From assembly GCA_963681505.1 (NCBI GenBank), contig OY811972.1, positions 10,744,775 to 10,808,774 of the forward strand: a DNA stretch of 64,000 bases, written 5' to 3'. The notes beneath the pieces are model-generated. The model searched no databases. It worked only from the letters and a program-made list of their open reading frames with translations, and was not told the DNA's origin. This stretch comes from Eunapius fragilis. Lineage: Eukaryota > Porifera > Demospongiae > Spongillida > Spongillidae. The position numbers and the translations under genes were made by a program. Each line of letters begins with the position of its first letter. The first letter of the stretch is position 1. Positions 11,362 to 63,900 of the stretch are shown one piece after another.

Positions 11362-11555
11362 GACAACCTTTAGGATCGGATTATTTTTGTATTCCGGCGG
11401 ATATGATGTCACATATAGACATTACGATGAAGTCCGTTGCTGTCTTAATTGGACCCCACAACGATATGACTATGTGGGGCCCAACAGAAGCTAGAGACCA
11501 CAGCCGTATAGTCTATAGGTGACATCACATTCGGAGTACAAAATCTGAAGTTGTC
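11362..11555. mobile_element. Short palindromic MITE, copy 1
   Basis: The ends are GACAACCTTTAGGATCGGAT and its near complement ATCTGAAGTTGTC, flanked by TA. It is the same element as 34449-34668. Inner arms pair around an AT-rich centre (GGACCCCACA .. TGTGGGGCCC). The foldback element at 10529-11359 is inserted exactly at its left TA. Confidence 0.75.
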
Positions 11556-15456: not shown

Positions 15457-16251
15457 GAGACACTCACGAGGCAAAGCGTACTGCATATAATACACCGCCC
15501 ATTTTAAAAAGTTAGTCACGTCTTAAATAATTAATTTGGTTGGTAATTATGCAATGAAGTTTATAAACAACCGTTCACGAATGTACAATCCGCAACTATT
15601 GTCAATTCCTTTTGACCTCTCATTTCTGGATTCATACTAATTGACGTCATTGTACTGTAAGAAGTGAACACTTTCATTACTACAGTCAAAATCATTAAAT
15701 GCTCACAGATGGAAATACATGATGTACTACATCTCTAATTGCATGCAGCTGTGGAGTTTTTCGATTGAAAGTTGCTTTGCACCCAACTGTTTTCATTTTG
15801 CTGATTGTTCGAATTCGGAAGCAACGTGTACAGTGTCGCCATAGGCAAACGAAGCTGCTCGTTTTTAAGTTTCAGGTCCATTACGTCCTGTCTCGTACAT
15901 TTAAAAGGCCTGGTAGTGTTTCGTATATTTGTGACGTACTGAAACTGCAAACATAGTAATGCTAAAATAATTTGGCTAAATGCTGCAATACACTTACCCA
16001 TAAACACGCATCAGCTTCTAGCCCGTTGAGGAGATCGTTCAAGGTGGTGGCTCCAGCCCCTTCCTGAGCAATATCCTTTATCTTACGGCTTGCGTCTAAA
16101 ATTTTTAATAGAGCTTGAAAGACTGGCTGAAAAGTGGCAACCCTTGAAAACGACTGGTTCACGAGCATCTGTTCTGATAGTCCTGTTATCGGTATAGTTA
16201 AATATAAATATTGATTTCGTAAATTGCATTATTTGCATAGACTTAATTTCC

Positions 16252-16590
16252 ATTTTCCTGAGTGTCCACCCGGGGGTACAATTGGACACCCGGGTGGACA
16301 GCAAAAAAAGTTTTTGCCGTTCAGGGGCCAAATTGCATTATTGGCCGTAGCTCGTATACGATGTACCGCACGGAGCGTAATGGATTGGTCCACTAGCACG
16401 GCTCGTTTTACTGGTATCAAAAGGATGTAAGCCTTATTTTATCTCGGCCCGATCCTAAAAAGACTTGTTCTGTAAGCCAGTACTGTTAAATGCAATTTGG
16501 ATCCTTCCATACCGAACGGCAACGGCAAAAACTATTCTTGATGTCTACCCGGGTGTCCAATTGTACCCCCGGGCGGACACTCAGGAAAAT
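16252..16590. mobile_element. MITE with long GC-rich terminal inverted repeats
   Basis: It starts ATTTTCCTGAGTGTCCACCC and ends with the complement. The arms of about 75 bp hold GGGGGTACAATTGGACACCC and AGTTTTTGCCGTTC. It lies in intron 1 of secreted-gene copy alpha and is absent from the same place in copies beta (near 21320) and gamma (near 37070). A TAGACTTAA / TAGACATTAA pair may be its target duplication (hAT-like size), but this is uncertain. Confidence 0.75.
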
Positions 16591-16757
16591 AGACATTAAG
16601 GGTGAAATATCATTCATACGCGAAAATGATGCATGCATAAAAGTGGAAGGTATTCAAACTGATGTGATGTATAATTGCAACTAATCTCCGTGAATAAAAG
16701 GCACTCGAGTCAATCCATGATATGTATATACAACACAGTATAAATTTCTGTACTTGC

Positions 16758-17285
16758 ATGGGGGGGGGGGGGGGGGAGATGGACTCATTGGCGCCCCCCC
16801 TTGTAATAAAAGTTTACACGATACATGCGCACTGGCTGAATTGGTTAAAAGTGGACAGCACCCACCGTCCACTGATTGAATCCGCCGTAAGCGCGGACAC
16901 CTCATAGATTGAATCGGCCGAAAGCTGACATCAGCCCCCCCCCCCCCCCCCCCCCCCACTTGTTGAATCGGCCAAAAGCGGACAGTACCCCTCCTCACCC
17001 CCCCCCCCCCCCCCCCCCCCCCCCACTGTTTTAATCGGCCGAAAGCGGACAGCACCCCCCCCCCCCCCCCCCCCCCACTGGTTGAATCGGCCGAAAGTGG
17101 ACAGCAACCCCCCCCCCCCCCTTCCCCCACCGGTTGAATCGGCCGGAAGCGGACAGCACCCCACTGGTTAAATCCGCCGAAAGCGGACGACGTATTCGCG
17201 GCTGTCAGATGGCGCCCTCTTGTACCTTGTACTTGGGTGCCCCCCCCCCCCCCCCCCCCCTTCCAGAAAAGCTGGGGGCACCATG
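16758..17285. repeat. C-tract minisatellite element, copy 2 (about 7 units)
   Basis: Units of about 50-65 bp consist of a long C run followed by ACTGGTTGAATCGGCCGAAA and GCGGACAGCA. C runs are at about 16936-16957, 17000-17024, 17056-17076, 17107-17120 and 17240-17260, with a G run at 16760-16776. The outer parts match 13795-14045 (TTGTAATAAAAGTTTACA, and CCAGAAAAGCTGGGGG). The long proline or glycine frames here are artefacts. Confidence 0.8.
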
Positions 17286-17416
17286 ACTAGCCGTACCAAT
17301 ACTTTCATATTCGCCTTTAGTCCACCTGCGAGCGCTACAGACTCCGGAGTTCCCCCTCCGCTGCTGGCGCATTGAATGAATACCAAACAGAACACGACTA
17401 TTGCTGTGCACTGCAT

Positions 17417-18604: not shown

Positions 18605-20950
18605 TGCCTCCGTTATATTCGCTGCGCAAGGCTGCATGGCCATGCATTCAAATGACTCAAAAGGGAAAGACTTGCAGTAAGGGGCCTTCTTTTAGTGTTA
18701 TAGTGGATGAATTCTGGCTTTTCATGGGATACCATCTGTACATGTTGTGCCACCCAGCTGACCTCCCTGCACAATATAAAAGCGATGTATTTGTTAAAAA
18801 TTAAATTTGGTATTTATAAGTTATGGCAGATTTCGTAGACTTCTGCAGGCTTTTACTCTTGCACAGTACCCTATTGTTGATGGTCAAACTGATCCTTTCG
18901 CATTCATTTGATGTTTTGCTGATGAATGGAACATAAACATGCTGCGCTGTGTAACACCAGATGGTATTTTGGTGGTCGATGAGAGTATGGGGCAATGGTT
19001 GGGTAAGGGTATGCCCGGATTGATGCACTGTTAGAAAACCTACCCCAGATGGAAGAGAAGGGCATACTGCTGCTGACAGGGAAAGTGAGATCTATGAAGG
19101 AAAGGCCCTGATGGCTGATAAAGAATATGTGAAATATCTGGGAGCTGGCTTAGTGACTGCTATGAGACTTACTTCAAAATGGAGAAATTCTGGTCATATT
19201 GTGATCCTTGATAGTGCATTTGCTAGCTTGAAGGCAGCAAAGGCTTTGGCAGGCGTAGGAGATTGGTAATGTCAAAACAGCTCACACAGGGTTTCCAATA
19301 CAATGGCTAAATAGCAAAGCGGAGCAGGCATGTGCTATGAATTCCTTTACATGCAGTCAATGGTCAACAGTGGGGTGTCCTCGCGGCCATTGATAAAGAC
19401 AAGCAGCCAATGTCCCTTACCACAAACATGGGAAACACTCTCACAAGGCACTTTACTGTACGTTACAGTAATGGTGACTGGCAGAATAAGAAGTCTGCAC
19501 ACTTAGACCAATTGCATATTCAAGAGCTTTTTCATTTTAACTTCAATGCTATTGATAAGCACAATGCCAAGAGGCAAGGAGGAACATCCTTTGAGGATAC
19601 ATGGAAGGCACATAGCTATTTAGTATGTCAGAAGTGAATTCTTTTATCTTCTGGAATAAATTTAAGCCAGGACAGGAAGTGACACCTGTGGCACACTTCT
19701 GCATGCAGCCGTGTCATCAAATGCTAAAGAATAAGCTGAAAGAGAGGCAGCCAGTACTGCATGGGTGATTCAGGCTGAAGCAGATGTTGAACATAAGCTA
19801 GTCAGCTGTGACAGAGGCCGCTGCAGGATGTGTGGTAGGATTACACGATGGAGGTGTGCACGTGTGGCGCTGTCACGGAGGAAAGTGTCCGTCGGAGTAA
19901 ATTATCCTACCGGACATTTTACTCCGGAGTAAATTGCCCCCGACGGAGTAAGTGGTCCTTCATATATATCGTGTAAATTGCAATTCAAACTATAGTGCGC
20001 AGCCACGTGGTTTAAGTTGTTAATCACTACCGATAAGGAGCGTAGCTGCCAGCTGGCTTTCAGGGGTTGTATGTGACATTTACAACATTTATAGCTGATG
20101 TAAATGGATGAGACTTATGAGTGAACATGCCGATGAAAACGTAGAACGAGAGTTTGCTGATGTCAGTTGAACTCAGGGCACATGCATCAATCCAGCGTAA
20201 GGTAAGCAGTCCTAGGACATATTACTACGGAGTAAATTGACCTAGGACATATTATTCCGGAGTAAGTTATCATACTCCGGAGTAAATTGCCCGCAGGAAG
20301 AGAGTTGGGTAGGGACAGTTCACTCCAGATGGGGACAGCCTAACTTGTCCTAGAGGGACAGGTTGCTCCGGAGTAAAGTGTCCTAGGACAACTTACGCCG
20401 AAGTAAATGGTCCGGGCGGACAGTTTACTCCGCGACAGTTTCCTCCTTGATAGCCCAATCCCCTCGCGGGGGAAGCCCAGAAGGAAGGAAGCTTCAGCAC
20501 TGTACCTGTGTCCTGATTCAAAGCATAGGTGTCTGATACTTCACTTGGAAGGTGTTAAACCTGCAAATAAGAAGAGGTAGACAGCGTTGCAGAGATGGAA
20601 GAGAAGCAGTGTTGTTAGTTCATCTTCTTCAGCAAATGATTTGCAACTCTGAGTGCATTACGAGTTATACGCTATCACATACATGGTGTTTCCTTACACA
20701 ATATATAAGCACACTGATCCAAACGTATGCGATGTTATCAAGATTTAAAATTGTCGAGTGATAATTACCAGTCATACCACACAACATACGTGCATGTATA
20801 TTTATCTTATACTTGTACAAAGTGCACGTGCACAGATGTGCACACTGTACCAAAAAGGAATTAGTGCTCTGTACACAATAATCTTAATAAATTAAAACCA
20901 CATATTAGTAATGTTGTCTGGGATGGTGTACTGCAAATGTTCACTTGAAA
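18605..20950 (+). mobile_element. piggyBac-like element, truncated copy with decayed transposase
   Basis: The + strand carries transposase pieces related to the copy at 38717-41108 (which is inverted): FWLFMGYHLYMLCHPADLPA near 18715-18774, then frameshifted pieces matching VVDESMG and IVILDSAFAS. Many stops mean it is dead. Transposase homology spans about 18640-19840. The 584-bp GGAGTAA element (19870-20453) is inserted after it. The last part (20560-20950) matches 39000-39430 inverted. Both termini are missing. Confidence 0.75.
19870..20453. mobile_element. GGAGTAA-rich MITE, copy 1
   Basis: The ends are CTGTCACGGAGGAAAGTGTC and, inverted, CTATCAAGGAGGAAACTGTC. Beside each end are clusters of degenerate palindromic units such as TTTACTCCGGAGTAAATTG alternating with TCCTAGGACA. 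The unique middle (20050-20160) includes CACGTGGTTTAAGTTGTTAA. It is inverted relative to the copy at 22497-23092. There is no open frame of note. Confidence 0.85.
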
Positions 20951-21645
20951 GCCGATAATGTACGTTTCAGGTCCATTACGTCCTGTCTCGTACATTTAAA
21001 AGGCCTGGTAGTGTTTCGTATATTTGTGACGTACTGAAACTGCAAACAAAGTGATGCTACAATTGTTTGACTAAATGCTGCAATACACCTACCCATAAAC
21101 ACGCATCAGCTTCTAGCCCGTTGAGGAGATCTTTCAAGATGGTGGCTCCAGCCCCTTCCTGAGCAATCTCCTTTATTATACGGCTTGCGTCTAAAAATGT
21201 TACTAGTGCTTGAAAGACTGGCTGAAAAGTTGCAACCCTTGAAAACGACTGGTTCACGAGCAGTCTGTCCTGTTATATAAATATAAGTATTGATTTCGTA
21301 CATTGCAATAAAATGTCATTATTTGCATAGATTTAAGTGAGAAATTTCATACTACTGCAGCGCGAAAGTTATGCATGCAGCATTTTGCATAAAACTGGAC
21401 AGATGTGATCTATAATTGCAACTAATCTCCGTGAATAAAATATTCTGGCACTCGAGTCTATCAATGACATGCCATATACAACATAGTATAAATTTCTGTA
21501 CGTGTGTACAGTCGATCGGACGTACCAATACTTTCAGATTCGCCTTTAGTCCACTTGCGAGCGCTACCGACTCCGGAGTTCCCCCTCCGCTGCTGGCGCA
21601 TTGAATGAATACCAAACAGAACACGACTATTGCTGTGCACTGCAT
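20941..21645 (-). pseudogene. Small secreted-protein gene, copy beta (exon 3 truncated)
   Basis: Exon 1 (21526-21645) keeps the signal peptide and exon 2 (21093-21269) is open with a 9-bp in-frame deletion. Splice sites look usable (donors GTACGT and GTAGGT). Exon 3 (20941-21039) keeps only its first 25 or so codons, through CTRQDVMDLK. It then runs into the truncated piggyBac-like element and stops after a new tail ending SAFK. It could still make a shortened 131-residue secreted protein, but the loss of about 55 C-terminal residues suggests a degenerate copy. Confidence 0.65.
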
Positions 21646-22496: not shown

Positions 22497-23092
22497 CTGT
22501 CACGGAGGAAACTGTCCGCGGAGTAAAGTGTCCCCCTGGACCATTTACTCCGGAGTAAGTTGTCCTAGGACACTACTCTGGAGCAACCTGTTCCTCTAGG
22601 ACAAGTTACATCGTAGTAAGCTGTCCCCATCTGGTGTAAACTGTCCGGTCCCTACCTCAACTCTCTTCCCGCTGACAATTTACTCCGGAGTATGATGTCC
22701 TAGGACAACTTATTCCGGAATAATATGTCCTAGGACAGTTTACTCCGTAGTAATTTGTCCTAGGACTGTTTTATTTTCGCTGGGTTGATGCATGTGCCCT
22801 GAGTTCAACTGACATCAGCATACTCTCGTTCTTCGCTTTCATCTGTCCTCTCATGAGTCTCATCCATTTACTATAACGTAGTAGAAGTCACATACAACCT
22901 CTGAAAGCCAGCTGGCAGCTACGCTCCTTATCGGTAGTGATTAACAACTTAAACCACGTGGCTGCGCAATAGTTTGAATTGCAATTCACACGATATATAT
23001 GACGGACCACTTACTCCGTCGGGAACAATTTACTCCGGAGTAAAATGTCCGGTAGGATAATTTACTACGATAGACACTTTCCTCCGTGATAG
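22497..23092. mobile_element. GGAGTAA-rich MITE, copy 2
   Basis: Same element as 19870-20453 in the opposite orientation, with ends CTGTCACGGAGGAAACTGTC and, inverted, CTATCACGGAGGAAAGTGTC. At least ten degenerate ACTCCGGAGT palindromes or half-palindromes occur within it. Its right end abuts, with no gap, the first base of the GPCR duplication (GCCTGATGAAG at 23093). Confidence 0.9.
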
Positions 23093-23125
23093 GCCTGATG
23101 AAGATATTAGGTATATATTTTGTAG

Positions 23126-24726
23126 GATGCTAAAAGACCTAGTTTTGCACGGTGGAACACAAGTTACACTAATGAAACTGGAAGTTGGATAACAGAAGAA
23201 TCCAAAATATTCAATTCAACAAAACATATGTTCACAACAGAAATGGTGTTAAAAAACAAACTCATTAGAAGAAAATCCACTCTTTATCAGGGAAATTTTG
23301 CTATGTTCTTGGTGAGTTTAAGAGTAATTTGCCGACTAATTTGTCATATTCTTGTAACCAAAGAATCTCAATCCTGGTGATGAGAGATGTTTGGCTGCTG
23401 AGGTAATCACAACTATTGGAACAATCCTCTCAATCATTTCTGTGCTATTCTTCATTATAACTTACCTCTCCTCAAAGTAAGCACATCACAGATGTTCACA
23501 TGATATAAAATGCATGTATACATATATATTTAATTCTCTCCAGAACTCTACGCAGTTCTGAACATGGCCAATTGCTCATTAATTTATGCTGTGCACTGTT
23601 GTGCCTGTACATCGTGTTTGGGGTGTCTGGATATACAACATCTGTACCGGCCATATGTGGAATCAGTGCAGCGCTAGTTCACTACTTCATGCTGGTTTAC
23701 TTCATGTGGACATCATCTGAAGCAGTATTTCTGTACATTAAACTTGTGAAGGTCCTGGGAAATTCAATGCACAAGTTTTCACTAAAAGCTGGGCTAGTAT
23801 CATGGTGTGAGTCAAGTTGTATTGATTCATCGCGTGAAATATGCATCATCAATTTCTTTTTTGTTTCAGTGGTCCCCCTTGGCATAGTGATCATTTCAGT
23901 TGCAAGAGGCTATCGCTATTATTACAATAAAAATTAGTATGTTGCCATAATAATATACATGTTCATGACAGAATTTTTTCATTCCCATTTTTTGCGTTTA
24001 ATATGAACCTGATGCTCACTTTCTATCTACCATTCTTCCTTAGATTTGTTCTACCATTCTCTTGTATTTAAATTTTCAACTGGATTGTGTCTGCTGTGAT
24101 AATGGTCTCCATCTTGAAGCATTCATCTAAGTCTAGTAACACAGATGGTAAGACTGTCACAATGCGCAATGTTGTGATAGCTGCTGGCTTAGCACTGGTT
24201 CTAGGGCTTGGCTGGGGCTTTGGTATTGCAGCAAGCAGTCACAAAATCAGTGTCTTGGCTTGTGTATTTCAAGCTTTATTTAGTTTATTTGTGAGCAGTC
24301 AAGGCCTTCTCATTCTTATATTCCATGGTGTACGGAGCAAAGATGCAAAGGCTGTTTGGCGATCATGGTTTAGAAATCACAGGACGTTATACTCTGTTGC
24401 CACAAACACACTGCGGGATGGCGGCGTGGTGCAAAGATCAGGTCTTGCTACAACCTCACAGTCCACTCATTCTACTGACGAACCATCAATATCTCTAGAC
24501 AAAACGTCTGGATATCCCACTGCAACTGAAGAACTGATAGCAATTGATGCATCATTTGGCAAAAAAAGTTCCTGTCGATACAGCGGAAAAAGAACCACAA
24601 GCGATTCCCAGGAGATTCTTGTCGTTATCAATCATTAAGAAGAATGCACTCGCCGACGGAGTGGTGCCGCGGACTTTTAGGAGTGACAGTCAGTGTAGAG
24701 CTGTTTCTGGAACAGCAAAAACATAA
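23126..24726 (+). pseudogene. Adhesion GPCR 3'-half pseudogene
   Basis: Copies of the last five or six GPCR exons: 23126-23311, 23364-23476, 23544-23806, 23870-23936 and about 24045-24726. There is no extracellular part. Three lesions: (1) about 20 bp covering the acceptor AG and first codons of the last exon are missing (compare 7092-7111 with 24024); (2) the TM5 codon reads TAA in ATTTAAATT near 24067 where copy A has ATATATTTT; (3) a frameshift near 24570 changes the tail, the correct frame resuming as VVPRTFRSDSQCRAVSGTAK up to 24726. A poly(A)-like AATAAA is at 24778-24783. Confidence 0.9.
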
Positions 24727-24879
24727 AAGGCTTTTTACGCAATACCATGTATATGTATACATTCCCTAAGCTGTATTAATAAATCAAGGTTACTATACTA
24801 ACATATATCCCTAGGTACGCGCATGTTCATTTATATTTTCTATCAAGTGATGAAGTCATTCTATTAAAGACACGTGTTT

Positions 24880-25750
24880 AACACACAATGCAAACTATTA
24901 GATGTAATATGTGTGTGCCGTGTGTGTATGTGTGTGAGGCGTGTGTTTGTATGTAATTAATTCTGTTAAAGACACATTTAGCATACAATACAAACTATTA
25001 GATGTGTGTATGTGTGTGAGCCGTGTGTGTATGTGTGTGTATGTGTGTATATGTGCGTCTGTGACGCGTTTACGACAACTATCTAATACTATAATTTCCA
25101 TCGTACGTACGTACGTCCGCGTAACTCATTTATATACTCGGCCTAGCGCCTATTGGTTGCTGGGTATGTACGCGTACCTAGCTACCAATAGAAACGACCA
25201 CCTCCCACACAAAAGGCGGTCGCAATGACAGCTGGTTTCCACTTCACATTTAATATCTAAATTTTTTCAATATTTCTTGAATTCAAAGTGGGGGGAGGGG
25301 GGAACTGCATAAGTGCCGAAACAATAAATGCAACGCTATATTGTGGTTTACTCTCAAGTCTCATCGTACAGGCCGAGAACATGTAGTTACTACCTGAAAT
25401 TGCGCGGGCATGTTATAGAGGTTGCGTAGTAACCGTGTGTTAGAACAGGTGATAGATTATATATGCAACATTTAGTAAAACAGCCGGTAAAAAAAAAAAG
25501 AGGAGCTAGGAGGTAGACCAACTGTTCTTCTGGCAAATGAATAAAGAGACGGATAATCAGCCCGTGATTTTTCACGGGGACACGCTAGTCTTGTATAAAT
25601 TCTAAACGTCAAATAGGAGTTTACTAAGTCTAAGTTATCAAACACATTTTCGTCAGTGCTAACAGTGCAATTGACAACGAAGGATCATAAGCTATTTCTT
25701 TGGGGTCTTGCGATGCACACAATGATGACAACCAATGGTTGAAACTGTTA
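24880..25750. other. GT-rich simple repeat, then unassigned DNA
   Basis: Simple GT/GTAT-rich sequence at about 24905-25070 matches 7987-8145. From about 25083 to 25715 the sequence is absent from copy A. It has no recognised gene; it includes TACGTACGTACGTAC at 25104 and an A run at 25489. The match to copy A resumes at about 25715 (ACCAATGGTTGAAACTG). Confidence 0.5.
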
Positions 25751-25757
25751 TCCAATG

Positions 25758-28700
25758 TGACTCTGATATTTTTTTAATTAGTACTATAATCCTTGGCTCC
25801 TTCCTCCCAGTGTGGGTCACAATCTCCAACTTGTTGCAAGTGCTACACCTCAGGTGCCCGTTGCACATCTTGTAAGTGTTGTCGAGAGGGGCACCCGTGT
25901 GTGAACTGTTACCCGGGGAGAAGTGGGAAATGTGCTAACGTTGTTCTCTCAAGCACTGTCATCCTACCTGCATCTACACCACAATTAGAGACAGTTCTCC
26001 AACCCAATAGCTTGAATTCTCTTTCCAACAATCAGGGACAAGATTTACAGCCATCTATGTCTTGGACACCCTCGCCTCAGAGTCCACCGTTTCTCACAGA
26101 AGAACAGGATTACAATGTCACTAGGCCACTCTCTCTCAACACCCCCTCTAACTTTGCAATGACTCCACATGCACCTTTTCCATCATCGTTTGCTCCACTA
26201 CCATGCCTTAGCAATGGCCATTCCAGTCTGGACTCTTCTATTTTAGAATTCACAGCTAATGATCCACTGCCAACACAGTCACATGTATGTGATGTACCAC
26301 AGGAGCAGAGTGAAGTCCCGTCCTCTAGCCAGCACCCCCATAAGAAATCCTGTCCAGTCCAAGGCTGCCAACAACTCATTGCTCCCACCATGTGGCGTCA
26401 ACATATGACCTTACATTGCTCAAGGTTTCTTCTCTGGTGCAGTACCTGGCTCTTGGCTTCAAGAACAAGATCTTTTCATTTGTCCCAATTGTCAGCAGCT
26501 GGTGGCTAACTCACGCCATTCTTCTCATCTTCGCAAATGCACACATGCCACTGCTGCACCTCCTAGTCTGTCCCCTCTCAGTGTCCAAGAAGCCGATCCT
26601 TCTCTTTTCCTCCTCCCCACATTTGAATCTGTGTGTAAACTACCAGGCCGTACAGTTCGGCACATCCCTTTGAAGGACAGACTTGCATTTGCTCTTGTTT
26701 TGTCTTCTGCCTTGAGGTCTGCTGTGCATGATAACTCTGAGGATGCTTGGCTGAAGCTGTTAATGCTGCCTAAATGTGTTCTTCTTGCTCCAAAGCGTGC
26801 AGGCAGACATCACAAGCCGGTGTCTATCAGTCGTCTATGCGCCCAATGGTCCAAAGGTGAGTTTAGTGCACTATGGAATAGAGCATCCAATCATTCCCCT
26901 GGCCCCATGCGTCCTACCTCTAACCACAAATCTTCAAGTGTCCAGACAGCAGTTTCTCTTGCTAGGGAGGGACTCTTATCTAAGGCCTGTCAGACTCTAA
27001 CTTCTTCGGGCCTGGCCCCCGACAACAACACCACATGGAATCTATTGGTCTCAAAGCATCCCAAAGGAACCCCTCTCACTCCTCCCACAGCACCTCTCTT
27101 AGCTGCCCCTTACCTTCCCCCAGACTTCAACATCATGGCTGTATTGCACTCCTTTCCAAAGGATACAGCGTGTGGCCCCTCAGGTCTCCGCATACAGCAT
27201 CTGATAGAAGCAGCAGAGGTTCCCCTTCAGTTCCCGATCTGTGCTGTACTTAGGGATGTGGTTAATTTGCTTATCTCGGGCAAGGTTCCTGTACAAGTGG
27301 CTAGGTTCCTTGCAGGGGGTAACCTGGTGGCGCTGGAGAAGAACAAACCCAACTGCCCCCCCGACATCCGGCCTATTGCAGTTGGAGAGGCTATTCGGCG
27401 TCTGGTTGGGAAATGCCTATGCTCCATGACTAAGGCAAAGGCCCATGATTTCCTCGCTCCTTTTCAACTTGGGGTAGCTTGTCAAGGGGGTGCAGAAAAG
27501 ATTATTCATGGCCTCAGAAGCTGTACGGACGAACATTGGCAGGAGGATGATTTTGCAGTATTAAAGATCGATTTGCTCAATGCATTTAATCTGGTATCAA
27601 GGCAGGCCGTCCTTAATGCTTGTGCCCTTCACATCCCAGAGCTGCTCCCATGGTCTCAATGGTGCTATGGGCAACATCCCGCTTTGTGGCACTCTTTGGG
27701 TTCTATTTCTTCAGAAACAGGTGTACAACAAGGCGATCCCCTAGGTCCCCTTCTTTTTTGTCTTGTATTGCAACAGATTATATCAGCAATTGCGGAGGAT
27801 GTTGACTGTGAATCGCTATTGTTTCACCACTGGTATATTGATGATGGTGTTGTCGCAGGGCCCGTTGCAGCCATTGCTCGTGTTCTCGCCATTATCCAAG
27901 AACGCGGACCACCACTCGGCCTCAATATCAACATCGCCAAATGTGAGTTGTTCAGTTTGAGGGATCTAAGTTCTTTCCCAGAGGAGATGAGGCGATCGAA
28001 TGTGCCACACTTTGATATCCTGGGGGCTCCCATAGGGGATTTAGTGTTCTGTGCAAAATTTGTAGCGCAGAAACAGTCGGAGGCTTCCAAGTTGCTAAAG
28101 GAGTTAGAAGCTGTGGGTTCTATCGACCCCCAGGTGGCCCTACTTCTTCTCAGGCAATGTGGGAGCTATTGCAGACTAGTTCACTTAGCTAGGAACACTC
28201 CACCTCTCCTAGTTAAGGAGGCCTTTGCCTTGTTTGATGATGGCGTGCAGCGATGCTTTTCGGAATGCACTGCAGTGGATGCTTCTGCTGCCACCTGGCA
28301 ACAGGCACAACTTAGCTTGAACAGAGGGGGTTTAGGGCTTCGGAGCTTAAGTTTCCACTCTCCTTCAGCTTACATTGCATCATTTTTGTCCTCAGGCCTT
28401 TCTCCATCATCATGTAGGTATATATCCTCGTCATTGCACCTTTACAACAGTCTAGTGGACCCCCAAGATTCTCTCACCCCTGAGTCTGTAGGTGATTCTC
28501 CTCTTTCACAGAAGGTTCTGTCTTCCAAGATAGAAGACCAACAATTCAATAATCTTTTTCACAATGCATCTGTGACTGACAGGGCTCGTCTTTTGTCCAT
28601 TTCTTCACCTCATGCCTCTGCTTGGCTGTCAGTCACTCCCTCCCCACGACTCAACCTCCACTTGGAGCCTGCTGAGTTTCAAGTGGCACTTAAGTGGTGG

Positions 28701-29373
28701 ATGGGTATTCCAGTGGTCCAAGGCCAAATTTGCCCTCACTGTCCTTCCTGTGTGTTAGATGACTTTGGCCATCATTCTCTCACTTGCAAACATGGAGGGG
28801 ATGTGGTTTCGCGACACAATAAGCTCAGGGATGTGTTTTATGACTTCTGCCAACGTGCTTGCTTGGGTCCACATCTGGAAATGGGTTGTGGGGCGGGATC
28901 CGATTCTCAATCCCGCCCAGCAGATGTTCTTGTTCCTAACTGGGACCTTGGCAAGCCGGCTGCCTTTGACTTGTCCGTCACGTCTACGCTACAATCAAGT
29001 ATTCTGCTAGAAGCGAGCGTGACGGCTGGTTCGGCAGCCCTGTTGGCTGAGAACAGGAAACACAACAGCAGCGACAAAAAGTGTGATGAACTGGGGTGGG
29101 CTTGTATCCCACTTGTTTTTGAGACCTACGGGTGTTGGGGGGCTGAAGCAGTGGCAGCATTTTCAAAGCTTGCAGGTCGTCTCTCTATCAGAAATAACGA
29201 ACTGAAGTCCAAGACCATTTTTAGCCTGTACAGCCGCCTAGGGTTGTCATTAGTAAGGGCGAACTGCAGAGCTATCCTATCTAGGTTAACATGACTGTTA
29301 AAGGACTTATTTTAGTGTATATAATAATAAATGTGTATTTATTCCTTTTTATTCCCTATATACTATACATATA
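25758..29373 (+). mobile_element. Non-LTR retrotransposon (LINE), nearly complete, flanked by CCAATG duplication
   Basis: Insertion limits come from comparing copy B with the uninterrupted copy A: CCAATG occurs once at 8201-8206, but at both 25752-25757 and 29374-29379 here. The element is about 3.6 kb with one long protein frame and a short 3' UTR (29295-29373) that has no poly(A) tail. It is young enough to keep most of its coding capacity. Confidence 0.85.
25793..29294 (+). pseudogene. LINE protein: zinc fingers, reverse transcriptase, endonuclease-like C-terminus; one frameshift
   Basis: Copies the element RNA into DNA at the target site. Order of parts: Cys-rich block (CCKCYTSGARCTSCKCC) at 25830-25930; C2H2-like finger CPVQGCQQL..H..HC near 26350-26420; second finger CPNCQQLVANSRHSSHLRKC at 26485-26545; reverse transcriptase with motif A LKIDLLNAFN (27561), motif B GVQQGDPLGP (27720) and motif C YIDD (27834); Cys-His knuckle with RHN (28730-28830); then RPADVLVPNW..AAFDLSVTS (28915-28985), resembling the restriction-like endonuclease of R2/NeSL-type LINEs. 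One base is missing near 26420, splitting the frame (25793-26509 and about 26430-29294). The likely start codon is TTG at 25793, just after an in-frame stop. It was probably active recently but is now broken. Confidence 0.8.
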
Positions 29374-34139: not shown

Positions 34140-34448
34140 GGCCCTGGGATGGAAGTATCACCACGCGTACGGTTGCCACCTTGCTATATACACCTAGCTT
34201 CCTTTCTGACGGTCAATTTCTCAATTTCGGTTCACAACGTAAATCGATCAGGGTTGACCCATGAAGATCTCAAAACACTAAACGAAGCATGATTAGTCCA
34301 TTGCAACTATGCAGTTGTGTGAAATGTATGTAGCCATCATGTTGTTCGAGGTCCGTGCATGCGCATGAATACAATGACACAAAGCAGTTGCTAGGTATAT
34401 TTCATTATGTAAAACGTATTCGAAGACATTCTAAGTTTTAAGTCCATA
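34140..34448. repeat. Block shared with 10230-10528
   Basis: Contains the repeat-R right end and the 5' flank of the small secreted-protein family (compare 37400-37520): AATGACACAAAGCAGTTGCT and CATCATGTTGTTCGAGGTCC. Exon 1 itself is missing. Confidence 0.6.
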
Positions 34449-34668
34449 CACAACTTCAGGATCTGATTATTTTTGTATTCCGGATGTAATGTCACCTATA
34501 GACATTACGATGAAGTCCGTTGTTGTCTCTAGCATTTAATTGGACCCCACAACGATATAATTATGTGGGGCCAACAGAAGCTAGAGACAACAAAGGACTT
34601 CTTCTAAAAATAAAATGTCTAGGTGACTTAACATTCCGGGTACAAAATAATCGGATCATGAAGTTGTC
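34449..34668. mobile_element. Short palindromic MITE, copy 2
   Basis: A 220-bp near-complete palindrome, ACAACTTCAGGATCTGATTA .. CGGATCATGAAGTTGTC, with TA on both sides (34447-34448 and 34669-34670). Its left TA is uninterrupted here but is the insertion site of the foldback element in the block at 10.5 kb. Confidence 0.8.
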
Positions 34669-34684
34669 TATTGCGTCCTATCTA

Positions 34685-34915
34685 TAGTATTTCGTATATT
34701 TGTGACATTCTGAAACGGCGAACAAAATGGTGTTAATTAATAATTTCACTACTTGCTGCAATATACGTACCAAATCAGCTCCCTTTGTAGAGATCTTTTA
34801 AGATAATGGCTCCACCCCTTCCCGAGCAATGTTACCACATACGTCTTAAAACGCTAATAATGCCTGAATGACTGCTGAAAAGTGGCGACACTTGAAACTG
34901 CGCGATCAGGCAGCA
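34685..34915 (-). pseudogene. Decayed copy of the small secreted-protein gene (delta)
   Basis: Exon 3 start (34688-34718), short intron and exon 2 (about 34790-34905) are recognisable on the minus strand but carry indels relative to 36832-37017. Closest to the relic at 11572-11820; both lack exon 1 and the rest of exon 3. Confidence 0.6.
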
Positions 34916-36300: not shown

Positions 36301-36532
36301 ATTATGGTATTAAACAATGAAGTTTATAAACAACCGTACACGAATGTACAATCCGCAACAATTGTCAATTCCCTTTGACCTCTCATTTCTGGATATGCTG
36401 TATGTTGCATGGCCGTCCTCTAACCTATTTAATATATGGATGGTACTTTTAATTATAAAAAAAGATATCATATACTAATTGACGTCATTGTACTGTAAGA
36501 AGTGAACACTTTCATTACTACAGTCAAAACCA

Positions 36533-37393
36533 TTAAATGCTCACAGATGGAAATACATGACGTACTACATCTCTAATTGCAGCTGTGGAGTTTTTCGATT
36601 GAAAGTTGCTTTGCACCCAACTGTTTTCATTTTGCTGATTGTTCGAATTCGGCAGCAACGTGTACAGTGTCGCCATAGGCAAACGAAGCTGCTCGTTTTT
36701 ATGTTTCAGGTCCATTACGTCCTGTCTGGTACATTTAAAAGGCCTGGTAGTGTTTCGTATATTTGTGACGTACTGAAACTGCAAACATAGTGATGCTAAA
36801 AATATTTGGCTAAATGCTGCAATACACTTACCCATAAACATGCATCAGCTTCTAGCCCGTTGAGGAGATCTTTCAAGATGGTGGCTCCAGTCCCTTCCTG
36901 AGCAATCTCCTTTATCTTCCGACTTGTGTCTAAAAATGTTAATAGAGTTTGAAAGACTGGCTGAAAAGTGGCAACCCTTGAAAACGACTGGTTCACCAGC
37001 AGTCTGTTCTGATAGTCCTGTAATATAAATATTGATTTCGTAAATTGCAATCAGTAATATTTGCATAGAAATTTCATACTACTGCAGCGCGAAAGTTATC
37101 CATGCAGTATTTTGCATAAAACTGGAAGGTATTAACACTTATGTGATCTATAATTGCAACTAATCTCCGTGAATAAAATATTTAGTTGCATACTGGCACT
37201 TGAGTCTATCAATGACATGCCATATACAACATAGTATAAATGTCTGTACGTGTATACAGTCGATCGGACTTACCAATACTTTCATATTCGCCTTTAGTCC
37301 ACTTGCGAGCGCTACCGACTCCGGAGTTCCCCCTCTGCTGCTGGCGCATTGAATGAATACCAAACAGAACACGACTATTGCTGTGCACTGCAT
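36533..37393 (-). CDS. Small secreted protein, three exons, unrecognised family (copy gamma, intact)
   Basis: Predicted 183 residues: exon 1 37274-37393 (40 codons), exon 2 36832-37017 (62 codons), exon 3 36533-36778 (81 codons plus stop). All splice sites are canonical (GTAAGT donors) and both introns are phase 0 (256 and 53 bp). The N-terminus MQCTAIVVFCLVFIQCASS is a good signal peptide. The mature part is rich in helix formers, has only two Cys (DACLW near the end of exon 2; PFKCTRQD early in exon 3) and three N-glycosylation sequons (NQS, NTT, NST). I do not recognise the family. Two near-intact and two decayed copies lie within 26 kb. Phase-0 introns, helices and one possible disulfide recall helical cytokines, but that is only a thought. 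A minus-strand AATAAA lies at 36298-36303. Confidence 0.7.
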
Positions 37394-38672
37394 TGCAACT
37401 GGCTGTGTGTATGCAATTGTGTGAAATGCACGTTATATATAGCCATCATGTTGTTCGAGGTCCGTGCATGCGCACGAATACAATGACGCGAAGCAGTTGC
37501 TAGGTAAATAACATTGTGCAGAAGACATTCGAGGTTGTCATGGGCAACGAGATAAGAGAAAGGTATGCATCTCGTAATTCCGTGAATCCCGACTAGTGCA
37601 ATAATTAACACCATTGCATGTTCTTAATTTAGAGCGTACAAGTCACATTGGGTATATGGGTGATTTGTAAAAACATTGCGCGGTGCAAAAGAACTGTTCT
37701 CGATGTCACGCAGGGACTGGGTATAACATCCGAAGTGAAGAGCCATCTTTGTGCGGCACTAGGGAGGCGATCTTTTTTTAGAGAGTTGCAAAACCAAGAA
37801 AGTGAAAGTCTGGACCGCTACATTGTCGTTGGTCTCCAGGACTCAACCTCATGCCATGTACTCTGCTTTTTTTTTCATGGTGTGTCTGCCTGATATCTTC
37901 ACTCCTTCGACCGCTTAAAGATGCAATCATACTCCATTTCACGTGACAGCATCAGTGATGTTGAGAGCGATCATTTCGCTCTTCACAACGCCTAGGTGTG
38001 TTACCACACCCATAACCCCACTGAGTCAGCTTATTTAGAATATTCCGCATCTATATATAATCACAGCCTCAATTGTAGCTATTGTCACTGTGTGAACTAT
38101 CCTCATGCACTCCATCTTTGTTAATTGCTCAAAATAAAGGCAAAAATCCATTCTCTGAGACAGCCGGCCATTTCATTCATCTGCTCTGATGCGACTGAAA
38201 ACTATATCCTGCTCCTGCCAATGTGAGTAAAAGGTGCTTCATTTTGAATTGGCTTTCTGTCCTGCCAATCAATTATCATGGTTTTGCAAACTCCACAATG
38301 ATGCCATGTGTTGACTGGCACCCACCATGCAACTCTCAATTCAAGCCATTGTGACTGCGACAGTTCTCCATGCATGTGCATGCATGCTTGCATGCGCCAC
38401 ATGTGATGGACTGGGGACTTTAATTGATATGAGCCACCATGGGAAAAAACTATTGTGGGCTGACGTGTTAATGAAATTGTAATCTCAGTACATCCGTGAG
38501 AGAAACCTCTAGAGATAGATAGCCCATCTATAGGACCATTGTATTGTAATTGACCCTTGTGCTACTGATGTCATGTGTACGTACATGTGTTAGTAGTTTT
38601 TAAACGTTTGTGTCTATGTACTGAGAATCTTCAATTCAAGTCTTGTTGTACGGCATTTAAGCTGTTTGCCTA
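37394..38672. repeat. Duplicated flank block shared with 17417-18604
   Basis: Aligned over its length with copy alpha's flank. The match ends at TTTGCCT (38670), where copy alpha runs into its truncated piggyBac-like element. No gene was recognised. Confidence 0.65.
37433..37441 (-). promoter_or_regulatory. Possible TATA box of the secreted-protein gene
   Basis: TATATATAA on the minus strand, 40-48 bp upstream of the ATG. The same motif at the same distance occurs in copies alpha (near 17460) and beta (near 21685), and in altered form in the decayed flanks near 10415 and 34330. Conservation of the whole 5' flank by duplication weakens the argument. Confidence 0.4.
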
Positions 38673-38716: not shown

Positions 38717-41108
38717 GATTTACTGTCTATTTGCATCCGAACTGAACAGGTGTGCACACTTTACTCCATAACTTCCTCATTGTATTACACCAGTAAGGAA
38801 GATCAGATCAGGTCATGAGTTATGCATAACATACCCAAAGGCAGTCGTGATGTATGGCATTAACCTTATTCGAAACTGTTTAGTTCATATGATGATTTGA
38901 GTGTTTCATGTAAGAGATGTTTTTGAAGAATTTTAGCTAGGAAATTAGACCTAACTCTCCTGGTATGTAATTACCAGGGGGATGTGATTTTCGACTGTCC
39001 AGTGAAAATTTGCAGTACACTATCCCAGACAACATTACAAATATGTGGTTTTAATTTATAGGGTATTGGTGGCTAAATTTATTAGGCTTAAGTAAAGTGT
39101 GAATGCATGTTCACACATTACTTTTATTGGTACTTTAAATAGAATTATGCATCAGGGGAACATGATCGAAAATAGCAAATCTCAAGGATGATAAAAGCCA
39201 TTAAGCTATAGGCCTATGTATCTCATCTTGAATCATAGAGCACTAATTCCTTTTGGTACAGTGTGCACGATGTGCACGTTGTACAAGTATAGATATGACT
39301 GGTAATTATCACTGGACAATTTTTAATCTTGATAACATTGGATACATTCGGATCAGTGCTTATTGTGTAAGGAAAAACCATGTGATAGCGTAATGCACTC
39401 AGAGTTGCTAATCATTTGCTGAAGAAGATGATCTGTCATGGCTGACTAGCTCATGTTCAACATCTGCTTCAGCCTGAATCACCCATGTAGCACTGGCTGC
39501 CTCTCTTTCAGCTATATCCACTTATTTGTTAGCAATTGATGACAAGGCTACATGCAGAAGTGTGCCACAGGTGTCTCTTCCTGTCCTGGCATAAATTTAT
39601 TCCAGATGATAAAAGAATTCATTTCTGACATACTAAATAGACTTGAAAGTCCCTCACCCACCAGCTATGTGCCTTCCATGTATCCTCAAAGGATGTACCT
39701 CCTTGCCTCTTGGCATTGTGCTTATCAATAGCATTGAAAAAGTTCATGAATATGCAATTGGTCTAACTGTGCAGACTTCTTAGTCTGCCAGTCACCATTA
39801 CTGTAACGTACAGTAAAGTGCCTTGTGATAGTGTTTCCCATGTTTGTGGTAAGGGACATTGGCTGCTTGTCTTTATCAATGGCCGCGAGGACACCCCACT
39901 GTTAACCATTGAATGTAACGGAATGCATAGCACATGCCCGCACACCGAGAAACCTTGCAATTTAGCCATTGCTTTGGTAACCCTATGTGAGCTGTTTTGA
40001 CATTACCAATCATGAGCAATCCTACACCTGCCAAAGCCTTTACTGCCTTCCAGCTAGCAAATGCACTATCAAGGATCACAATACAACCATAATTTCTCCA
40101 TTTTGAAGTGGGTCTTATAGCAGTCACTAAGCCAGCTCCCAGATCTTTCACATATTCTTTATCAGCCATCAGGGCCTTTCCTTCATAGATTTCATATCGA
40201 ATTATACACTCAGTTTCACTGTCAGCAACAGTATGCCCTTCTCTTTCATCTGGGGTAGTTTTCTAGCACCATTGGGCATACCCTTACCCAACCATCGCCC
40301 CATACTCTCGTCTACCACCAAAATACGATCTGGTGTTACACAGCGCAGCATGTTTATGTTCCATTCATCAGCAAAACATCGAATGAATATGACATGATCG
40401 GTTTGACCATCAACAATAGGGTACTGTGCAAGAGTAAAAGCCTGCAGAAGTCTACGAAACGTATAAATACCTAATTTCCCAAGATCATGTTTAACAAATA
40501 CATCGCTTTTATATTCCCCATAATCTTGTGCGGGGAGGTCAGCTGGGTGGCACAACATGTACAGATGGTACCCCATGAAAAGCCAGAATTCACCCACTGT
40601 AACACTAAAAGGGTGCCCCTTTTCTGCAAGTCTTTCACTTTTCAGTCATTTGAATGCATATTTCGTCTACAAGGTTTCGGGGAATGCATGCTCAAATTCA
40701 GTGCCTTCAACTGAATTGAGAAGGTGAAACTGAGTTGATTGGGAATAGCCATGAGCTAATGCAGGACAAACAGCTCGTCCAGTATCCTTTTCCCACCTTA
40801 CATCATGAGCATACGCATCCTCCCGGTGTGGTTGCTGCACCCCATCGAACTCCTCCTCCTCCTCTGTGTCTAGGCACTCACCTTCCCTGGATTCAGAGCA
40901 AATTTTGAAGCAAATTTGAGATTAGTTAATTTAATAACCTGTTATTATTAATCATTGTCCCCCCATCCTCAGATCCTTTTATGTAAAAATCTAAAACACT
41001 GCTCATTTGTATCAAATAGTGCAGAGCTGAAAGTAAACTGTGCACACTGTGCATACAGTGTGCACAGGTGTTCGCACGGATGCAAATAGACAATAAGGGG
41101 CCATTTAA
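38717..41108 (-). mobile_element. piggyBac-like element with both inverted ends
   Basis: Candidate terminal repeats are TACTGTCTATTTGCATCCGA (38720) and the inverse of TATTGTCTATTTGCATCCGT (ending near 41095), each followed by GTGCACA-rich sequence (near 38750 and 41040-41070). TTAA, the piggyBac target, lies at the right edge (41105-41108) but is not seen at the left. The transposase is on the minus strand. A decayed, truncated copy in the other orientation is at 18605-20950. Confidence 0.7.
39450..40940 (-). pseudogene. piggyBac-like transposase, frameshifted
   Basis: N-terminal acidic part with a TEEEEEFD run near 40860. The open piece 40202-40597 has FWLFMGYHLYMLCHPADLPA and VVDESMGRWLGKGMP (first catalytic Asp region). 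Piece 39876-40190 has EIYEGKALMADKEYVKDLGA, then VILDSAFASWKAVKALAG (second Asp region of DDE_Tnp_1_7). The remainder lies at 39450-39800. The frames do not join without indels, so the gene is dead. Confidence 0.75.
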
Positions 41109-42021: not shown

Positions 42022-45000
42022 ATGGATCCAGGGTCGCATAGTACCACAGATTCTCCAAAAGAGAATAAAGAATGCCAGATGGAGAGAGACCGCGAGGAAG
42101 AAGGGCTAGGGATCAGACCTTCTCCGCCCGTGGAAGACCTAAATAAAGTGAAGACAAGGTCCCCGGGGATGGTGAACGAAGAAGAGGAAGGTCAACTGAT
42201 TGTAGAGACACAGAGTACCGAGTACGTGCCTAGAAACCCGGTCGAAGAGAGAAAAGTTGAACCAGCGGTTGTAGCATTGCCCGAAGAAGTGAAGTGTGAG
42301 ATCGTGAAACGCGTTCATGGGGATTTGGATAAAATCATTACCGTCCCATCGATGTCTCTCGTCGAAAAACCAAAGCGTAAGTATAAGTAGGTTTTAAATG
42401 CAAATATGTCATAATTCTCCACCTGTTTGCACACGCTGTTAGTCGGTCACAGTTACTACGAAGTGTTAGTATCAACGGGGGAGGAGGAAGGAACCGCCGG
42501 TTTTGATCGGGGCATTTACCTCGTCGTGGAGGGTACCAAGGGTTCATCTGGAAAACTCTACGTTAGGAAACTCTTCAGCATTGCGTCATCGAAAGGGGCG
42601 GCCTACCTCGTACAGATTGAAGCGAGCGGTGACCTTGGAGAGATACTCGTCACCACAGTGGGCAGTGATCCCCATCAAACCTCTGTGTTTGACAAAGGAA
42701 TGAAGCCGAAGCCGTGGTTTGTGGAATTCGTTATAGTTCATAACTTCCAGAGTAAATACACTTCGACATTTCCATGCTATCATTGGATCGCATTTGGAGG
42801 TTCTGTGAGCCTTACCTCGGGAACCGGTAAGTGTGCGGGAATATATATTAGTGGTAAGGTTATAAAAAGATTGCGGCCGCAATGCACGCAATTGTAGCTT
42901 ATAGCTGCATGATTTAAGGAAGCGTATACTGCTTGGCACAGATTAAGATGCGCTTTAGTAGTAGATGCATTTGTTAATCATTATTGATGAAGCAAGATGT
43001 GCGATGTGTGGTTTATTTATTGTTCATTAATTATTGTTCATTAATTTTAAGCGGCAAGTGATCCGTTATGTTAGGATGAAATTTTAACTTCACTGGCAAA
43101 GTGACGCGTAATTTAACCTATGTAGCTGTATATTTGCTGCAGTGGAGCTAGTTATTTCTATCTAAACTGCCGGTACTGATTCCTTTAGCCACATTGAAGA
43201 CCGTTAGTGGATATGGTTCACTTATCGACTACAGGAGGAACCAATTAGAACATCGAAGGAAATTATACGCATGGCGCGAATTTCCTGGTACTATGCTACC
43301 ATCTGGTTTGGATACAAGCGTTGCTGAAATGCCATTGGATGAGGAATTTGACTACGTCAAAAATCTGGACTTTTCTGCTGACGCTAATAAGTCGAGGGCT
43401 GTGCAGTCAGTTACTACTAAGCGACTTACGTCAAAGCGCCTAACCGTGGAACACCTGCGAGACTTTGAGACTCTAGCCGAATCCGAAGCAACAGTGTTTC
43501 AACCTAAACCTATATACGAACTTGGGCGTTGGACGAGGGACCTGGAGTTCGGTTTCCAGTTGCTGAACGGATTGAATCCACGAGCTGTTCGAAAATGTAC
43601 AAAATTGCCCGAAAATTTCCCGGTCACGTCGGCTATGGTACAAGGTTCCCTCACGAGGGGATCGAGCTTGGAGGATGAGATGAAGGTGAGTGTCATGATG
43701 CCCCACTACAATTTATTATTGCGTTAACATCTGTCATGCTGTAGAATGGTCGCGTGTACATATGCGATCTCGGGATTCTTGACGCCATTCCGTGTCGTGA
43801 GTACTTCTACATATCCGCTCCGCTGTGTTTGCTTGTCGTGAACACGTACAATCAGCTAGTACCAATTGCCATTCAGCTGAAGCAGGCGCCGAGCGACGAC
43901 AATCCGATCTTTCTTCCCAGTGATAACTGGATTGACTGGCTGCTCGCTAAGATGCATTTTCAAAGCGCATTTGCGCAGGTAAGTGAATTGGGAATGCATA
44001 TATATATATATATTAAAGCAGTGCTACTTAACGATGCAGTATAGCGCACATATTTTTCACCGCTTCTCTAATGTATAATGCATATTTGTACTATTGCAGC
44101 TGCATCAGATAGTGGCTCATTACTTCTCATGTCATTTCATTATGGAGGCCTTCATCGTAGCTACCATGCGCAATCTACCTGATCAGCACCCTGTCTTTAA
44201 GCTCCTCCGTCCGCACATGCGTACCACGTTGTCCATCAACTCGCGGGCACGTGAGACGCTTTTGAACGATGGCGGTTTGTTCGACCAGCTCTCTTCTCTT
44301 GGGCAAGAGGGCAAGAATGAGCTTTTCAGGAGAGCGGCGAGTGCGTTCAACCTGCAATGGAACAATATAGCCAAGGACGTGAAGGAACGCGGGGTGGATA
44401 ACCAGGAAGAATTACCTGGTTATTACTACCGAGATGACGGACTTAAAATATGGAATGCTTTCCAGCACTACGTGGATGGAATTGTCTCTCTGTTTTACGA
44501 AACAGATGAGGAAGTGGCAAATGACCCAGAAATACAAAGTTGGGCTGAGGATATGTACATTCACGGCAGCCCAAAGTCTGGCCATGACTGCGGCATTCCA
44601 AGGAAGATAGATTCCAAGGAATTACTCGTGGAAACCTGCTGTACAATAATCTTCACGGCCACTGCTCTTCATGCGGCTGTAACTGCCAACCAGTTCAGAT
44701 ATTACAGCTTCATACCAAATGCACCGTACAGCATGGCAATGGCTCCTCCCAGCATCAAAGGTGTTGCAGATATGACCATGTTGATGGCATCGTTGCCAAA
44801 TGAAGAAATGTCTGCCAAGGGCGTGGCAATGTCAATGTTGCTATCACAATATTCCAGCACCCCGGTACGCGCAAGTGTGTGCAAGTTAAATCTTGCATGC
44901 GTGCATGCATCTTGACATGCTGAGGATGCCCGGCTTTATTATCTGTTCTTCTTCTCCACAGCCATATTTGGGGAAATTCCCTCATCTAGCAAGCTTTAAC

Positions 45001-60912: not shown

Positions 60913-63900
60913 ATGGAGACGAGAAAGTTATCAGGACAGGGAAAAACAACCGAAGGAGGAGGATCCGAGGAGATACCATCCGAAAAGGGATCCGTGGTTG
61001 AGGAATCTGCAGTAAAGCCCTCTGAGAAGTTTTCTGAGAGGCAACAGTCAGGTGGGAAGTCTCACGGAGAAGGTGTAGAAGGAAAACCACTGGAGGGAAT
61101 GTCTTCCGGAGGAGAACAGAAGACAACCGAAACAGGAGGATCGGAAGAGAAACCTTCCGGATCGGATGATTTATCCAGAGAAAAGAGCTCTTCAGATACA
61201 CCATCCGAACAGAAAGGCTCCGAAAAGGAATCTGTGGAGGACTCCACAGTCGGGCAAATGAAGAAAGTTTTCGAAGAGCCATCGGAGAATGTGTCTGAGA
61301 AGGAACAGTCAGGCGGAAAAACTTCAAGGGAGGAAGAGCAAGTAGGGAAAGAGGAAACCCCACAGGAGCCAAAACCTTCCGGAGTTGAACAGGGGACCGG
61401 AAAATCCGAGGAGAAACTCTCCGGATCGGAGACTTTATCCGGAGAAAAGCGTTCTTCAGAGACACCGTCAGAACAGAAAGGCTCTGAAAAGGGGCCCGAG
61501 AAGCTTTTCGACGAAGGAGTTGAAAAACAACCAGAGGGGCAAAAAGCCGGAGGACAGTCCTATCCTGAGGGCCGGGAAGAGAAACCACGGCTAGAGCAAC
61601 CGGAGAAGGAAGTGCGGGAGGAGGAAAAACCGGGAACGAAACAATTGCCTTCTCGTGAGGATCAAGGACGCGAGACAGGGGCCGCGCCACCAGACCTGGA
61701 AGAGAAGGGGCGGGTTGAGGAAGAGCAGGGAAAGAAAGGACCTTTCCAGAGAGAACACGGAGACATATTGACAATAGCCGAAGCAAAACCCCCGCCGGAG
61801 CTGCCAGATAGAAAAGAGCGGAATGAGGAAGGGGAAGGGAAGGACTCGGGAAATGTGGGGAAGGACGTAGGGAAAGAAACACAGCCAGGAGAGAAAATAT
61901 GGGTACAACAGGACGTAAAATGCGAAATCATAAAGCGATCCCACGGAGAGCTGGATAAGAACACAACTGTTCCGATAACGCAAGTGGATAAACCAAAATG
62001 TAAGTGAAGCGTGTTTAATCGCCTGAATGCTATTGCATGTGCATGTATATGAATGAATGCTAAATTATTTGTGTTCTGTACATACAGCTGGTCACAGCTA
62101 CTACGAAGTGATCATCTCAACTGGGGAAGAGGCCGGTGCATCGACATTCGACCGAGGCGTGTATTTTGTTCTGGAGGGCACAAAGGGAGCGACGGGCAAG
62201 CAGTACGTCCGTAAGCTGTTTAGCAAAGCAGCCACGAAGGGGGCAACAGATGTGTTGCAGTTGGAAGCTAACTCCGACCTTGGGGACCTGCTGGTGGCAA
62301 CCGTAGGGAGCGACGAGCCGTGGGTGGAGATGCTAAAGAAGCCGTGGTTCGTGGAGTACATCGCGGTCCACAACTTCCAGAGCCGAGAGACGATGACGTT
62401 TCCTTGCTATCATTGGATCACTTCAGGCAGTTGGATGAGTATGGTCTCACGTACAAGTAAGTCGTGTGCGAATACTTGCAGTTATTGTATTATGGGACCG
62501 TCTAGCAAAATCGTCGAGTTTTTTATTTTTTTTAAATTTCCGTGAACTCTATAAAGAACTTCTATCAAATAGTCCTTACGCATCCAAAATTGGGCTATCC
62601 ATCAGTTATAAGGCACTGAATTTATAATTAGCCATACATATCAATGCAAACGTTACATTTGTATTACAAGGGTGATTTTGCTGGATACTATGACGAGCAT
62701 GTAAGCAGGAAAATAGTTGACCAAAACGTGTCGGGGATTATTCGAGTGACAATAGGCTTGACCTGCGGGTATGAATAATAACCTGATTGCGCTCTCATCC
62801 CCATGCTCACACTCATCCACGCTCCGTAGCTTTAGAGAAGGACGTAACCAACAATGGAGTACTGACCTACCATAGAAAGACAGTTTTGGAGCAGCGAAGG
62901 AAGCAATACCTGTGGCAGGAGTTCCCGCAAACCCTGTTGCCTTCGGGGCTAGACACCAGCGTAAGCCAATTGCCCCAAGATGAAGAGTTCGACAACGTCA
63001 AGAACTTTAACTTCGTTGATGCGGTGAACAATTCGCCCGTCTTGTCGGCTAGGATTTCCTCCAGAAATCAAAACCTAGAGCATCTCCGGGATTTCGAGAC
63101 TTTGGCCGAGGCCGAACCGCACCATCACGTGCGCTCGCCCCTTTACGAGGTGGCCCGCTGGACGAGGGACGACGAGTTCGGTGAGCAGATGTTGAACGGG
63201 GTTAACCCGTGTTTGATCCGCAAGTGCACTTCGCTGCCCGAGAACTTCAACGTGAGCAGTGAGATGGTTCAAGGATCCCTTACAAGAGGATCAAGTTTAG
63301 AAGACGAAATGAAGGTTGGTAGTGGAAGTTATATTCATACACCTAATGTCTGAATTACGTTATTTTTTTGTCTTCCTAAATTGTAGAACGGACATGTGTA
63401 TATATGTGACCTGAAGATCCTTGATGAAATTCCTTGCCGCGAGTCCTTCCACTGCGCCGCGCCTCTATGCCTGCTTTATGTCAATAGTTACAATAAGCTG
63501 GTCCCTATTGCCATCCAGCTTAAGCAGAAACCTGGTGATGATAACCCTGTGTTCCTTCCAAGCGACAGAATGATTGACTGGCTGTTGGCTAAGATACACT
63601 TCCAAAGCGCATTTGCACAGGTGAGGATATTGCATGTGTCCGCACTGCTTGTATAATCGCAGTTGTAGAATTAACTAGCATTGTAATAAGAGTAATTATC
63701 ATTGTGTGTGCTAGCACTAAGAACGATTAAATGCCCCCGCGTGCACATCGAATTGTTAAGCATGGACCCCGATAAACGTTCTTTTCAACCTAATAGATGA
63801 ACCTGTTGGCGATGCATTACCTTTCCTGCCACTTCATTGTGGAAGCATTTATCGTGGCTACCATGCGCAATCTCCCCGATTCCCACCCTGTCTTCAATCT

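Follow-up and report, generated by a model that had tools for sequence, protein, structure and literature searches.

One intact candidate secreted-protein gene among broken local copies in the freshwater sponge Eunapius fragilis

The locus and its intact gene

The window, by which we mean the whole 64,000-nucleotide stretch of DNA that was analysed, covers bases 10,744,775-10,808,774 of chromosome 2 (OY811972.1) of Eunapius fragilis. Its minus strand carries an intact gene of three exons, here called gamma, a frameshifted copy (alpha), a truncated copy (beta), two relics and two decayed pieces of promoter and start region (Table 1). In chromosome 2 coordinates gamma lies at about 10,781,307-10,782,167. 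The published genome description puts the genome at 218.91 Mb in 23 chromosomes, chromosome 2 at 17.64 Mb and the mitochondrial genome at 28.5 kb (PMC12616128). The assembly that was searched holds 218,937,333 bases in 24 contigs.

Table 1 Gamma and its copies (positions are those of the window)
Feature	Position	Strand	Description
Gamma exon 1	37393-37274	minus	40 codons; start codon, signal-peptide-like segment, residues 1-40
Gamma exon 2	37017-36832	minus	62 codons; residues 41-102; two predicted helices; C100; sequon N49
Gamma exon 3	36778-36533	minus	81 codons and stop; residues 103-183; C118; sequons N111 and N165
Gamma 5′ flank	37394-37532	minus	TATA-like run (TATATATAA); its end lies 39 nt upstream of the ATG
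Two ATTAAA hexamers resembling polyadenylation signals	36428-36453	minus	Start about 80 and about 100 nt past the gamma stop
Alpha	15695-17416	minus	Copy with two frameshifts and repeat-filled intron 1
Beta	20941-21645	minus	Open frame, 131 aa; exon 3 cut by dispersed repeat at 20961
Relic	11578-11732	minus	Exon 2 (part), intron 2 and beginning of exon 3; aligns more weakly on to about 11810
Relic	34685-34897	minus	Exon 2 (part), intron 2 and beginning of exon 3; aligns more weakly on to about 34914
Decayed promoter and start region	10229-10530	minus	New in this analysis
Decayed promoter and start region	34144-34450	minus	New in this analysis

The gene model can be read directly from the DNA. 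The original prediction had described gamma as an intact three-exon gene, and its coordinates, splice sites and open frame of 183 codons were all borne out. The introns (256 and 53 nt) are GT-AG and both in phase 0; the donors are GTAAGT and GTAAGT, the acceptors TTACAG and TTGCAG. The 183-residue product is hydrophobic from residue 3 to residue 14, with a mean hydropathy of 3.09 as against at most 1.17 in any window from residue 26 on, and small residues follow near positions 17-19. By the −3,−1 rule, small residues suit a signal-peptidase site. Judged by hydropathy, the product carries a putative N-terminal signal peptide. On that basis the predicted signal peptide was found again, as were the two mature cysteines, the three sequons and the phase-0 introns. 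If the signal ends at residue 19 the mature part has 164 residues and a computed pI of 9.59. A search for RNA families gave no match at the gathering threshold.

Several other genes and repeats occupy the window. The stretch 93-3435 consists of units of about 1 kb that are repeated in tandem and share 92-94% identity, and the open frame 77-457 of the one unit scanned matches fibronectin type III. The membrane segment of a secretin-type (adhesion-like) GPCR is present twice, at 6159-8168 (with a 7tm_2 match) and at 23092-25084, the two being 92.8% identical. Between the second of these and the relic at 34685-34897 lies an open frame of 961 residues with a reverse transcriptase domain (26409-29294). 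Upstream of gamma, the stretch 37656-38304 has counterparts on many chromosomes, which align with it for as much as 650 bases and are about 65% identical. The region 39432-40659 resembles a piggyBac transposase (Pfam DDE_Tnp_1_7 at 22.0 bits, just under the cut-off of 22.4); an inverted copy of it lies at 18642-19815, and related sequences occur in other parts of the genome. Parts of a gene with PLAT and lipoxygenase domains lie at 42415-44915, and a second, related stretch at 62057-63987; the domain scan covered the first stretch.

Broken copies and the search for relatives

The copies other than gamma are broken in different ways. One of the two frameshifts of alpha falls in exon 2 and the other late in exon 3, as the prediction of a frameshifted copy would have it, and intron 1 holds a palindromic repeat (16240-16602) and G/C tracts. 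That repeat has 366 candidate places in the genome, 40 of which were scored. Beta was expected to be truncated yet open, and so it is: its match to gamma ends at 20961, the adjoining 20887-20959 matches a dispersed repeat at 38987-39059, and the last residues of its frame are derived from the repeat. The acceptor region of beta exon 2 differs from that of gamma and the exon starts three residues shorter. GT/AG is retained at the splice sites of both alpha and beta.

The two relics, likewise anticipated, are about 71% identical to gamma and have broken frames. Both run, at the same place, into one and the same palindromic repeat (34447-34673 and 11360-11543), for which 38 places outside the window were scored (of 139 candidates 40 were scored, and two of these fall within the window). 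The decayed 5′ pieces extend what had been predicted. They are 78.6% alike and match the gamma 5′ flank at 75% (10229-10530) and 83% (34144-34450), the latter reaching 87% over 92 bases in a separate comparison; the stretches that resemble the flank are 10392-10491 and 34308-34423. Read along the minus strand, each piece follows a relic, a position that would be expected of a head-to-tail array.

Searches of the whole assembly, in which first-look candidates were scored, gave nine matches to the gamma protein, seven to the gene DNA, three to exon 2 alone and four to exon 3 alone. All are within this 27-kb locus apart from one match of exon 3, which lies on C16 (E 1.08, 38% over 37 residues) and was taken as chance. 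No convincing further member was therefore found elsewhere in the 219-Mb assembly with whole protein, exon 2, exon 3 or gene DNA as query; since the relics were detected by DNA and not by protein search, members more diverged than they are could escape detection. The prediction of at least five copies holds as a count, whereas only one intact copy was found in the assembly. "Family" is too generous a word for what has been found so far, namely one intact gene with four copies that are broken and, in addition, the two decayed 5′ pieces.

Beyond the assembly, gamma has no match at E up to 10 to any family in Pfam or in NCBIfam (a prokaryote set). PDB sequences returned seven matches without a common theme, the best at E 0.23; those at E 0.23 to 1 (ATP synthase g, sporulation kinase D, CheA, coat protein) were taken as chance. 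With a method that finds close relatives only, none of 9 pattern stretches in IMG/VR and none of 96 in GTDB genomes was confirmed as a relative of gamma. These results agree with the earlier statement that no known family is recognisable, and as none of the five collections is a sponge collection, absence there says little. The restriction of gamma to its lineage is accordingly provisional. No paper on the gene was found among open-licence PubMed Central papers.

Coding signal, constraint and fold

The gamma frame was compared with chance by counting, among 200 dinucleotide shuffles and 122 other segments of the window, the 908-base sequences that yield a frame of 183 or more codons interrupted by at most two introns; the segments overlap, span both strands and may include coding DNA. 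Such a frame arose in 0/200 shuffles and 0/122 segments when a GTAAGT donor and a CAG acceptor were required, a strict rule picked after the gamma gene had been seen. With GTAAG or GTGAG donors and CAG acceptors the counts were 1/200 and 1/122. With any GT/AG they rose to 7/200 and 7/122, and under this rule the gamma stretch itself yields a longer alternative frame of 208 codons. Only the demand for consensus splice sites sets gamma above shuffled DNA.

Comparison of the copies gives an uneven picture of constraint. Between gamma and beta (123 codons) dN is 0.027 and dS 0.093, a dN/dS of 0.29 (one-sided Fisher p 0.016) carried by exon 2 (0.24, p 0.036); gamma-alpha gives 0.47 (p 0.096, not significant; 157 codons) and alpha-beta 0.90 (p 0.42; 122 codons). 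With sequences in common, the pairs are not independent, and the p values are uncorrected for 12 tests. Exon 1 carries no signal of constraint, its replacement and silent changes numbering 2/0 in gamma-beta and 2/1 in gamma-alpha. A hand count on the unrooted tree assigns 4 replacement and 5 silent changes to the codons that set gamma apart from alpha and beta, 7 and 1 to those unique to broken alpha, and 3 and 2 to those unique to beta.

Insertions and deletions are scarcer in exons than outside them. The gamma-beta alignment has nine in 544 nt outside the exons and one, near the edge of exon 2, in 385 exon nt (binomial p about 0.04, by hand). The 3′ part of gamma-alpha has two in 432 exon nt and three in 172 other nt, the 5′ part none in 120 exon nt and five in 235 other nt. 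Substitution in the exons, by contrast, is hardly slower than in the surrounding DNA. Mismatches number 17 in 385 exon nt and 26 in 544 outside for gamma-beta; for gamma-alpha they number 16 in 432 and 5 in 172 in the 3′ part, where the exons are slightly faster, and 3 in 120 and 3 in 235 in the 5′ part.

Codon usage was scored after training on 1480 codons of neighbouring genes. Gamma scores −0.019, compared with a mean of −0.101 for 142 open stretches from presumed non-coding parts, of which 19.7% score as high as gamma; its proper frame is the second best of six. Ten known segments, on which the score had been trained, lie between −0.005 and 0.279. Taken together, the comparisons lend modest support to gamma being a coding gene under weak or recent constraint.

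Structure prediction with AlphaFold2 covered exon 2 and exon 3, each by itself. Exon 2, with the three copies aligned, was modelled as helices 2-38 and 43-61 (pLDDT 71.3, pTM 0.37). Exon 3 gave no confident model (pLDDT 54.1, pTM 0.25).

Interpretation of the locus

We favour, at a probability of roughly 0.6, the reading that gamma is a genuine, single-copy, lineage-restricted and helix-rich secreted-protein gene of a freshwater sponge, the sole survivor of local tandem duplication. The case that gamma is a real gene can be summarised as (i) consensus splice sites and an open frame beyond what shuffled DNA yields, with GT/AG kept in alpha and beta; (ii) the gamma-beta dN/dS, the few exon indels, and the contrast between gamma and alpha in the counts of unique codons; (iii) a hydrophobic start, a TATA-like run, ATTAAA words, the helices of exon 2 and protein matches confined to the locus. 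Against it stand the unremarkable codon usage, exons that change hardly more slowly than non-coding DNA, the 7/200 shuffles under any GT/AG, the gamma-alpha p value, the alpha-beta ratio, the unconstrained exon 1 and the fact that no homologue was found outside the locus.

These same points could mean that gamma is non-functional too: either a chance frame, or one copy of a dying array, silenced not long ago and intact by chance. The weak codon signal, exon divergence close to that of the surroundings and the breakage of every other copy found would all fit. We regard this as possible but rather unlikely, as chance seldom yields an open frame together with consensus splice sites, the gamma-beta exons have few indels and their dN/dS is low. 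It is very unlikely that some copies are alternate haplotypes set in tandem by the assembler, which would make the array smaller than it appears. The genome does seem to be very heterozygous, to judge from the k-mer completeness (primary 55.49%, alternate 43.92%) and the eight haplotypic duplications removed by curators that its published description records (PMC12616128), and the two GPCR segments are closely alike. The window, however, contains no N, and its blocks, among which there are an inversion and different repeats, diverge by about 8% to 29%. We think it still less probable that a mobile element contains the gamma exons or carries them as cargo. Dispersed repeats and the piggyBac-like transposase do lie beside the copies, and beta is cut by such a repeat, but the exons and promoter were found at this locus only while the neighbouring repeats are found on many chromosomes. 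All nine protein and seven DNA matches are here, and the product contains no transposase, reverse transcriptase or capsid domain by Pfam. A transposon origin was rejected as unlikely on these grounds; signs that the exons are a transposon fragment, which would have undermined the original prediction, were looked for and none was seen.

A helical-cytokine-like fold had also been thought conceivable. In size, secretion signal, helical exon 2 and phase-0 introns gamma does recall class I helical cytokines, and its two mature cysteines would fit as well; cytokine genes favour phase-0 introns. It differs from them in that no sequence or profile match joins them (Pfam gave no family and no PDB match was a cytokine) and in the lack of a confident model for exon 3. 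The cytokine fold is an up-up-down-down four-helix bundle; the models of gamma cover single exons. A receptor was not found in two weak genome searches: EpoR_lig-bind gave no match in this genome, with two control genomes below the cut-off, and STAT_bind none, with silent controls, so absence is not shown by either search, both of which can miss domains split between exons. To our knowledge no cytokine-like helical ligand has come from sponges, and none turned up among open-licence PubMed Central papers. The class I receptor CRLF3 is reported absent from Porifera (PMC6797617). To read gamma as a secreted ligand with a helical bundle, on a par with the class I helical cytokines, is to favour something highly improbable. 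We would give equally little credence to a cytokine-like sponge signal of independent or unrecognised deep origin, with the array as the remains of a once larger set of ligands.

Under the favoured reading, that gamma is a genuine secreted-protein gene, the locus would have been built by repeated local duplication, after which the other copies would have been broken by frameshifts and repeat insertions. If expressed, gamma would encode a small (about 164 residues with the signal ending at residue 19), basic (pI 9.6), N-glycosylated and helix-rich protein with one likely disulfide, C100-C118. The secretory pathway would export this protein, and outside the cell it would most likely serve as a soluble ligand or effector, though any such role is conjecture. 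Genes for secreted proteins are often copied locally where they take part in defence or recognition. The proposed defence or effector role is nevertheless unsupported here; the other copies found are dead, which fits a dispensable gene as much as an arms race.

Two known kinds of system come close to this locus. Like the orphan secreted-protein genes of animals, gamma is small, of secreted type and accompanied by local decaying copies, with no homologue detected; unlike them, its locus has one intact member and its restriction is provisional. As in tandem birth-and-death arrays, copies are clustered here, with open and broken ones mixed and some dead, but such arrays would hold more than one functional, diverging member, and a second intact, diverged member was not found, the 219 Mb having yielded one intact copy. 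What had been seen in the DNA is confirmed and enlarged by the two 5′ pieces, and its interpretation contracts from an expanding family to one intact gene that is probably real.

Gamma would matter more only if its full-length fold proved to be a cytokine-like bundle, as we know of no such ligand in sponges. The gene is probably genuine, though an ordinary case of lineage restriction. If real, gamma would be one more lineage-restricted secreted gene, of modest value in itself, caught after local duplication to at least five copies, of which all but one of those found have since been broken by frameshifts or repeats.
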